Below the pieces are notes generated by a model, which was given only the letters and a program-made list of their open reading frames with translations, did no database searches and had not been told where the DNA came from. Shown in pieces: positions 61,702 through 63,079 of a stretch of 64,000 nt of DNA. The translations under genes and the position numbers were made by a program. Source of the DNA: Saccharibacillus brassicae (GTDB taxonomy: Bacteria > Bacillota > Bacilli > Paenibacillales > Paenibacillaceae); assembly GCF_006542275.1 (NCBI RefSeq), contig NZ_CP041217.1:1969501-2033500 (forward strand), given 5' to 3'. Positions within the stretch are counted from its first letter, which is position 1. Each line of letters begins with the position of its first letter.

Positions 61702-61751
61702 CAAAAAAACAAAAAGAGCGACCTCGCGCGAAAAACGCGAAGCTGCTCTTT
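61702..61751 (-). terminator. Expression-platform terminator of the ZTP riboswitch
   Basis: Arms AAAGAGC (61745-61751 on the minus strand) and GCTCTTT (61713-61719) with GCGCG inner pairs, followed by a TTTTTGTTTTTTT tract. Confidence 0.8.
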
Positions 61752-61824
61752 GCCCAGGCGACCGGCCGATAACTCCGGTGCTCCATCGTGGTTGAACCCA
61801 CATTTGTCGCCAGTTACACCGGAT
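61751..61824 (-). ncRNA. ZTP (pfl) riboswitch
   Basis: The minus strand reads CCGGTGTAACTGGCGAC, then GTGGGTTCAACCAC, GATGGAGCACCGG and finally CGGTCGCCTGGGCA. These are the conserved parts of the pfl motif: the CCGGTG/CACCGG stem, the GGCGAC-GTCGCC pseudoknot and the terminal CCTGGGCA loop. ZTP/ZMP accumulates when 10-formyl-THF is short; binding stops terminator formation. A glyA operon downstream is a known association. Confidence 0.85.
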
Positions 61825-61876
61825 CTGTAAATTTAAATTCATCATAAGGCAACAACCGGCAAAAATCAACTTAAAC

Positions 61877-62095
61877 TTGCGCGAAACCCGGACGAAAAAC
61901 GCCGGAGGCGCGGGGGTGTTCGGGAGTGGGGTGAGCGTTAGAGGGAGCGCGAGAGAGCGGCGGGTCCGAGGGGCGGGCGAAGCGCGGAAGGGAGAGCGCG
62001 AAGGGCGGCGCAGCGGGGAGCGCGGCGGCCGGGCGTTGGGGGAGCCGCGGGCAGAGCGCGAGAAGCCGCGGGCCCGAGGGGCGGGGCGAAACCTG
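61877..62095. other. Purine-rich, G-skewed low-complexity tract
   Basis: About 220 bases of mainly G and A on the plus strand with repeated GAGCGCGAG and GAGGGGCGGG blocks. An open frame crosses it, but its Arg/Gly/Glu-only content looks like low complexity rather than a gene. Confidence 0.6.
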
Positions 62096-62108
62096 ATTTC
62101 CCTAAAGC

Positions 62109-62290
62109 TAACGAATCGTCAGCACGCTAAAGGGTCGTTTTTCGCTCTTCTCGATTTCTAACGAATCGTCAGACTGTTATTCGGCGTTATCGGCTGCAAA
62201 AACCTGTTTTGCGCCCAAATAGCGTGACTAGGATTCGTTAAAATCGGAAAAACGCCAAAAACCCTCAAATAGCGCGCTGAGGGTTCGTTA
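62109..62290. repeat. Four 50-bp repeat units in mirror arrangement
   Basis: Units begin TAACGAATCGTCAG at 62109 and 62159 (plus) and, on the minus strand, TAACGAATCCTAGT at 62240 and TAACGAACCCTCAG at 62290. Each pair is spaced exactly 50 bases. Shared features are the start, a CACGCTA/CGCGCTATTTG block and a T-rich middle. Confidence 0.8.
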
Positions 62291-62422
62291 GGATTTGTCG
62301 GCGTACTGTTGGAGGCGTCGGAGCGGGTTGGACCGCCTCGAACTTTGGAGGAAGCAGTTGGTGGCTGTCCGTTCGGCGATTAGCAGTTAGCATTTGGTGA
62401 TTGCCGGTTGGCGGCTGCCGCG
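62291..62422. other. Low-complexity GTTAGC/GTTGGC-like gap
   Basis: The stretch between the repeat block and ywlE is made of degenerate GGTTGGCGGCTG/GCAGTTAGC-like words. No gene is seen. Confidence 0.4.
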
Positions 62423-63010
62423 TTACGGCCTGCTTTCGTTTTGCAGCTTGTCGAGCAGGCGGTCGAGCGCCGCGCGGATCTCGGCGGCCGTCGATTCGTA
62501 CTCGTCGCGTGAGCCGCCGAACGGATCGGAGATATCGAACTGCGGAATGCGCTGGCGCAGCTCGATCATCCGCTGGCGCGCCGAAGCTTCCGGAGCTTCC
62601 CCGAGCGCACGGGACAGTTCGGCGGACGCCGTCAGGCTGTCGAACTCTTCGAGATCGCCCAACACGTTGGGATCGTCTTCCACGTATTCTTTGAGCGTGA
62701 ACGTGCGTTCGAACGCGTGCGGAAAATGGCGCAGTACGTGACTCTTGTGCGAACCGGTCAGCGTGAGAATAAGATCGGCCCACTCCACCAGATCCGCGTC
62801 GAGCGGAGAAGAAGTCAACCGGTCGTCGATACTGTGGTCGCGCAGCACCGCTTCGGCCTGACGGGAGATCGGAACGCCCCGCGAGGCGGCCACGCCCGCC
62901 GAACGCACTTCGACTGTCACCCCGCGCTGCCGCGCCATCTGCCGCAGCAGCGCTTCGGCCATCGGACTGCGGCACGTATTGCCCGTGCATACGAATAAAA
63001 TATGTGTCAT
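62423..63010 (-). CDS. ywlE: Low-molecular-weight protein-arginine phosphatase (YwlE type)
   Basis: A 195-residue LMW-PTP-fold phosphatase. P-loop CTGNTCRSPMAEALL near residue 8: the Thr before Cys-Arg is the residue linked to phospho-arginine preference in YwlE. The general acid loop is ISDPFGGSRDEY. It removes arginine phosphate set by McsB, opposing ClpCP targeting. ATG 63010 with GGAG nine bases upstream is chosen; the frame to 63055 lacks support. Confidence 0.93.
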   Translation of the reverse strand: MTHILFVCTGNTCRSPMAEALLRQMARQRGVTVEVRSAGVAASRGVPISRQAEAVLRDHSIDDRLTSSPLDADLVEWADLILTLTGSHKSHVLRHFPHAFERTFTLKEYVEDDPNVLGDLEEFDSLTASAELSRALGEAPEASARQRMIELRQRIPQFDISDPFGGSRDEYESTAAEIRAALDRLLDKLQNESRP

Positions 63011-63079
63011 GGGAACCGTCTCCTTTGCCTGAAAATGAAATTCGATCGAGTGCAAGCCGTTTGGCGCATACGTCTAAAT

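Follow-up and report, generated by a model that had tools for sequence, protein, structure and literature searches.

A dispersed non-coding element with two inverted pairs of 23-bp sites in Saccharibacillus brassicae and other Paenibacillaceae

Near the end of the window, i.e., the whole stretch of 64,000 nucleotides of the Saccharibacillus brassicae chromosome that was analysed, a block of four similar units lies between the gene of an LMW phosphatase (positions 62423-63055, minus strand, PF01451), whose stop codon is 132 bp away, and, on the other side, DUF436 followed by glyA. A ZTP riboswitch (61745-61827, minus strand, 57.9 bits) precedes DUF436-glyA, and a GC-rich, purine-rich repetitive stretch adjoins the block at 61900-62085, containing a 22-base direct repeat (91%) with copies 108 bp apart. 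The preliminary description of this DNA presented the block as a mirror-symmetric structure of 182 bp, composed of two plus and two minus units with TAACGAA starts and an exact 50-base period in each pair, and this is confirmed by the coordinates (Table 1). On the plus side, CTAACGAATCGTCAG recurs at +50 with zero mismatches; on the minus side, 25 bases recur at +50 with 80% identity, and the 60-nt arms of the block are complementary at 72%. Measured between their 5′ bases, units 2 and 3 lie 81 bp apart in the window element and mostly 82 in G125 and G214, two other genomes of Paenibacillaceae. A CRISPR array was considered and rejected, as the block consists of two inverted pairs and not of direct repeats in one orientation.

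Table 1. Parts of the four-unit element (positions in the window)
Feature	Position	Strand	Remarks
Whole element, four units (two plus, two minus) in two inverted pairs	62108-62291	.	182 bp from first TAACGAA to last TTCGTTA, plus one flanking C/G
Unit 1 core	62109-62131	+	Begins at 62109; TAACGAATC-N7-CGCTA; the final TT of the consensus is AA here
Unit 2 core	62159-62181	+	Begins at 62159, exactly 50 bp from unit 1; single departure from consensus, at position 17
Unit 3 core	62218-62240	-	5′ end at 62240; exact match to consensus; genome C1:2031718-2031740
Unit 4 core	62268-62290	-	5′ end at 62290; exact match to consensus, 50 bp from unit 3; genome C1:2031768-2031790
Central spacer between inner cores	62182-62217	.	

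The block was also said to sit where rpiB is expected in relatives. In P. athensensis, an ORF between the LMW phosphatase and DUF436 (L175:5750-6391), which by eye we take to be RpiB, agrees with this expectation, but no rpiB-like ORF is present between the same genes in Paenibacillus sp. P96 (L182:5591-5910), nor is there one at the window locus. In four other Saccharibacillus species, the corresponding gap of ~100 to 410 bp looks too short for rpiB. Only S. deserti among them holds a full element at the same place (83% identity); S. qingshengii holds a one-unit remnant there, and in the two further species the window element was not found at this place. Thus, a simple replacement of rpiB by the element does not account for the locus.

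Each unit is a 23-bp imperfect dyad, TAACGAAnC-N7-CGYTATT, and, because TAACGA and TCGYTA are dyad halves on either side of N9 (TAACGA-N9-TCGYTA), an element comprises four imperfect palindromes. Units were collected from the S. brassicae genome (195), G214 (85), and G125 (162) with a regular expression whose two ends are preset as TAACGAA-like and CGYTA-like; conserved beyond these fixed ends are C9, T22-T23, and, in G125 and G214, A15, with C or T at position 19. The site centres follow each other at distances of ~50, 61 (in other genera 62), and 50 bp, and in three genera the prevailing unit spacings are 50 bp inside a pair and 81-82 from pair to pair. The units begin CTAACGAA and fall into lineage subfamilies, TAACGAAYC in S. 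brassicae and TAACGAAAC in G125 and G214. The bases just outside the elements are partly conserved, with CTC before TAACGAA in the latter two genomes. Predicted curvature exceeded that of shuffles in two genomes and not in the third, i.e., the signal is modest and inconsistent. Ten-bp AT phasing was dropped: no common best period emerged across genomes, and S. brassicae flanks, used as control, scored as well.

The block recurs in its own genome beyond chance, both as a spaced pattern and as a 23-bp core. The pattern TAACGAA-N150..178-TTCGTTA has 35 matches (one of them, at 5064889, is by eye no element) and the core has 93 exact occurrences; the reversed controls have 0 in both cases. A profile made from 29 strict copies and iterated found 54 elements in 51 regions, and the core search added three places, namely two full-length elements and one two-unit remnant. 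This soil bacterium accordingly carries ~57 elements, 54 of them longer than 170 bp; the merged total is 59 intervals, as array remnants are counted apart. Both a similarity search and spaced patterns revealed many relatives in the genome, which rules out a single occurrence. All 93 exact cores lie inside elements or remnants; no solitary core, which could have pointed to a regulator, is among them. Alignment and flank analysis covered 52 of the 54 elements, the truncated L141 and L142 being left out. The aligned copies are 181 (1 copy), 182 (37), 183 (13), or 184 bp (1) long, share a mean pairwise identity of 64%, and differ on average by 26% from their consensus, with 16 indel events and 2483 substitutions. 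They can be oriented, since their two sides differ consistently. Some elements have extra units, with three minus units at 1.43 Mb and six at 2.83 Mb; in the latter array (C1:2828438-2828767, L125), the units follow each other in 49-50-bp steps and some adjacent ones are near-identical. A second stretch, L135:10351-10555, matches many other places in Saccharibacillus genomes and is possibly another repeat or RNA.

The family extends over several genera of Paenibacillaceae. A loose pattern was compared with its reversed control in 394 genomes of the family, and a strong excess (pattern/control) was seen in a number of genomes, namely G125 with 150/4, G351 with 71/1, G214 with 67/8, G361 with 61/0, G105 with 60/4, and G094 with 53/0. 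Many genomes stay at background, so the 302 of 394 genomes with any loose match are no count of carriers. Of 398 genomes taken from the class, 10 contain a strict three-unit pattern; each of these belongs to the 37 of the family, and the 361 others have none (control 0). Copies from different genera agree at ~50% of positions, with the geometry recurring. The sample from G125 and G214 comprised 20 regions per genome, in which 36 of the 150 and 21 of the 67 pattern matches were recovered as elements. On contigs C8 and C10 of G125 (L253, L254, L261), whole elements with their flanks are tandemly amplified with periods of ~201, 244, and 286 bp. At G073:C4:256938-257211, a palindromic unit of 51 bp, TAACGAAG..CTTCGTTA, is repeated in tandem; this seems to be a different repeat that has the heptamer in common. 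A 91-152-bp stretch (L280:1182-1326, with matches in L285 and L297) is repeated in two sister species, close to their four-site elements but not within them.

The elements are intergenic. In S. brassicae, none of the 54 overlaps gene calls made with a codon model, and the gaps holding them are convergent in 29, co-directional in 24, and divergent in 1 case. Three-genome counts were based on copies fitting the strict expression (42 from S. brassicae); of these 99 elements from the sampled regions, 1 overlaps a gene, 33 lie in convergent, 61 in co-directional, and 4 in divergent gaps. The excess of convergent over divergent gaps, compared with other gaps of at least 100 bp, gave p 9e-6 for S. 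brassicae, p 0.005 for G214, and p 0.12 for G125, which is not significant. A terminator-like hairpin precedes the element at 29 of 74 facing gene 3′ ends (0.2 in base shuffles). The element itself resembles a terminator, with a GC-rich hairpin and a T run, in 2 of 54 cases only, and an intrinsic terminator was therefore rejected. Among the 24 elements with co-directional neighbours in S. brassicae, 15 point with the genes and 9 against them (hand count). Orientation with respect to replication was also considered, with the origin at ~2.5 Mb and the terminus at ~5.3 Mb as estimated by the GC skew of sampled regions; 32 elements point with the fork and 22 against it by hand count, which is not convincing. 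Elements are dense at 2.88-4.15 Mb (13 of the 54 in 3.5-4.0 Mb), with 20 plus and 4 minus orientations there by hand count, for which replication direction alone is insufficient.

Part of the history of the family can be read from the relationships of its copies. For 96 of 119 elements, counted among the copies fitting the strict expression, the nearest neighbour is in the same genome (at most 47 in shuffles), so copies multiplied within lineages. Besides the window element, further elements are common to sister species at the same places. Partial copies with lost units exist, and in one sister comparison, a whole outer unit was lost between TTCGTTAG repeats. A target duplication was searched for in 52 of the 54 elements at lengths 2-9 and offsets 0-3, with nothing above shuffled pairings. 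Four genomes were searched with the joined flanks of five elements, and no clean empty site was found: in two cases both flanks are present in a sister species and hold the element or a remnant, one case gave a single flank, and two gave nothing. PF01797 (Y1_Tnp/RAYT) has no match in the S. brassicae genome and is present in 1 of 16 genomes of the genus, G006, in which the element pattern is below its control; within the regions examined, no autonomous copy or partner transposase was met. No DNA similar to one element of S. brassicae, or to one of G214, was found in plasmids or phages; in viral contigs, two scans with patterns picked out 20 stretches, 2 with a full element. A mobile origin is likely. 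The suggestion of a non-autonomous mobile repeat, put forward in the preliminary description, agrees with the past multiplication within lineages, but neither an empty site nor a target duplication nor, within the regions examined, a transposase was found.

The conservation of sites was assessed at orthologous places, where sites change more slowly than spacers. In eight orthologous pairs, changed positions amount to 34/419 in cores, 226/940 in the rest of the element, and 692/3215 in flanks; thus, the non-core positions evolve like flanks (226/940 versus 692/3215, p 0.11). The heptamer (positions 1-7) was used to find elements, and members found by BLAST or the profile let other core positions count. 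In seven pairs (the pair L125/L050 left out), positions 8-9, 17-18, and 20-23 changed in 17/208 cases versus 135/570 in the spacer (p 4e-7); of the other unit positions, 1-7 changed in 7/181, 19 in 0/26, and 10-16 in 30/182. For the pairs C4 and C8, the cleanest in this respect as they were found only via the heptamer pattern or flanks, the non-heptamer core changed in 7/64 versus 43/180 in the spacer (p 0.03), and for the three pairs with a partner located through a gene or a flank (those of the rpiB site, C4, and C19), in 6/88 versus 61/236 (p 9e-5). In L125/L050, cores (14/45) and other positions (54/133) differ little. Orthologous indels are not significantly rarer in elements than in flanks (10 per 1359 versus 43 per 3215, p 0.096), hence fixed spacing is argued from the paralogs and from the concordance of the genera.

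The block is thus a member of a family of non-coding DNA elements dispersed in genomes of Paenibacillaceae. We tentatively interpret the element, with a probability that we place slightly short of even, as a four-site platform for a putative DNA-binding protein. It is proposed that the four 23-bp dyad sites, arranged in two inverted pairs, are bound together by this protein as one complex, and that protein binding, not a transcript, would be what is kept. The binder might be a nucleoid protein, or else a transposase or recombinase that was domesticated. The one observed loss of an outer unit looks like the outcome of recombination between TTCGTTAG repeats. The function of the sites cannot be essential, since in many species of the family the pattern is no commoner than its control. 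Among the three options initially offered for the block (a non-autonomous mobile repeat, a recombination or binding site, a source of structured RNA), a binding site for a putative protein is best supported, by the fixed spacing, the lack of solitary exact cores, and the slow change of cores. An extended form of this proposal, which we consider unlikely, assumes that the elements serve as places on the chromosome where an undescribed, lineage-adaptable DNA-organising system of Paenibacillaceae assembles. Its protein, perhaps a domesticated recombinase, would wrap or bridge the four phased dyads to form a discrete complex between genes, and site and protein would coevolve, giving every lineage a site dialect of its own in an unchanged 50-61-50 geometry.

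The main rival is a purely selfish non-autonomous mobile repeat, similar to MITEs or REPINs, whose units would be recognised by a transposase supplied in trans and which would have no host function. Bacterial interspersed palindromic repeats are often taken as neutral or selfish, and the dispersed copies, the terminal inverted units, the lack of coding capacity, the nearest neighbours within the same genome, the lineage subfamilies, and the uneven numbers of pattern matches per genome (background level up to 150) fit such an explanation. We regard it as possible but rather doubtful, for cores are slower than spacers at orthologous places, and neither target duplication, clean empty sites in sister species, a Y1/RAYT transposase in the S. 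brassicae genome, an autonomous copy in the regions examined, nor a plasmid or phage match for the two query elements accompanies the repeat. If the elements were relics of an extinct mobile element in neutral drift, their high divergence, the flank-like rate of non-core positions, and the partial copies would be expected; the same slow cores and the few indels among paralogs make this very improbable.

The other explanation places the function at the RNA level: the element would be transcribed at gene 3′ ends and form a long hairpin, read from either side, that ends, stabilises, or processes mRNA. The predicted hairpin of the window element is strong (z -4.26), but any inverted repeat can give such a value. 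Placement at gene ends (33 convergent, 61 co-directional, 4 divergent of the 98 classified) agrees with this explanation, and some pairing measures slightly exceed shuffles. Three named structures were counted on the 52 copies against 500 shuffles. Standard pairs reached 88.6% versus 87.8%, 50.2 versus 48.8, and 79.3 versus 79.3, i.e., a gain of about one point or none; the pairing of the first two structures was reached by 6 and 21 of the 500 shuffles, which relatedness alone can give. Pairs changed on both sides number 9 versus 9.2, 34 versus 32.9, and 2 versus 1.7, and the covariation score was at least as high in 16, 15, and 160 of the 500 shuffles, so covariation is marginal at best. In unit 1, the third pair of the dyad is unpaired in 42 of 52 copies, which would be unfavourable to an RNA stem. 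No Rfam 15 family matches over the window element at E up to 1, many facing gene ends already have a terminator-like hairpin before the element, few elements are terminator-like themselves, and co-directional copies point both with and against the genes. The suggested structured RNA is thus not upheld, its pairing being explained by the repeated motif, and we judge a function at the RNA level to be quite improbable.

If the four-site platform is correct, the 182-bp element with its four 23-bp sites offers a defined bait for the putative protein. A rigid four-site architecture shared by genera at about half base identity, together with slowly changing sites, makes a function for the host or for the element directly testable.

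Dispersed palindromic repeats are a known kind of thing, but we know of no described repeat with a four-site, fixed-geometry, family-wide form. It was stated in the preliminary description that the block is not recognised as a described family, and this still holds for Rfam and for the literature matches listed. Titles and abstract starts of these matches, which come from freely available papers, contain no description of the repeat; among passages of PMC3733652, PMC2267715, and PMC3012674, those on P. vortex count 184 global and 32 local inverted repeats and do not describe them. As defining features that were looked for are lacking, we do not assign the element to the REPINs, the MITEs, or any known RNA family. 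With the REPIN/BIME and RAYT system, it shares short imperfect palindromic units, inverted pairs, extragenic location, many copies, and lineage subfamilies; it differs by four units (++--) at fixed 50-bp steps and by the lack of a RAYT/Y1 gene in its own genome. The GTAG or CGTC tag beside the palindrome of REP/REPIN (PMC3733652) is not constant in the consensus here; CGTC is present in a part of the S. brassicae units, and position 10 is G in 15 of 162 G125 units and 10 of 85 G214 units. ERIC of enterobacteria is likewise a dispersed intergenic imperfect palindrome with no known transposase, but it differs in sequence, length, internal four-site architecture, and phylum. BOX of Streptococcus pneumoniae (see PMC3049150) is a modular interspersed repeat with ~45-50-bp modules of varying number, which are not known to form two inverted pairs of fixed geometry. 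The bcr1 element and other bacterial MITEs (PMC3733652) are also short, non-coding, and placed between genes with terminal inverted repeats, whereas no target duplication and, in the regions examined, no partner transposase were met here. Multi-site transposon ends such as those of Tn7, with several 22-23-bp protein sites per end and the ends inverted, resemble the two inverted pairs; in the element described here, no genes lie between the ends, there is no terminal TGT, and the length is near-constant at 182 bp.
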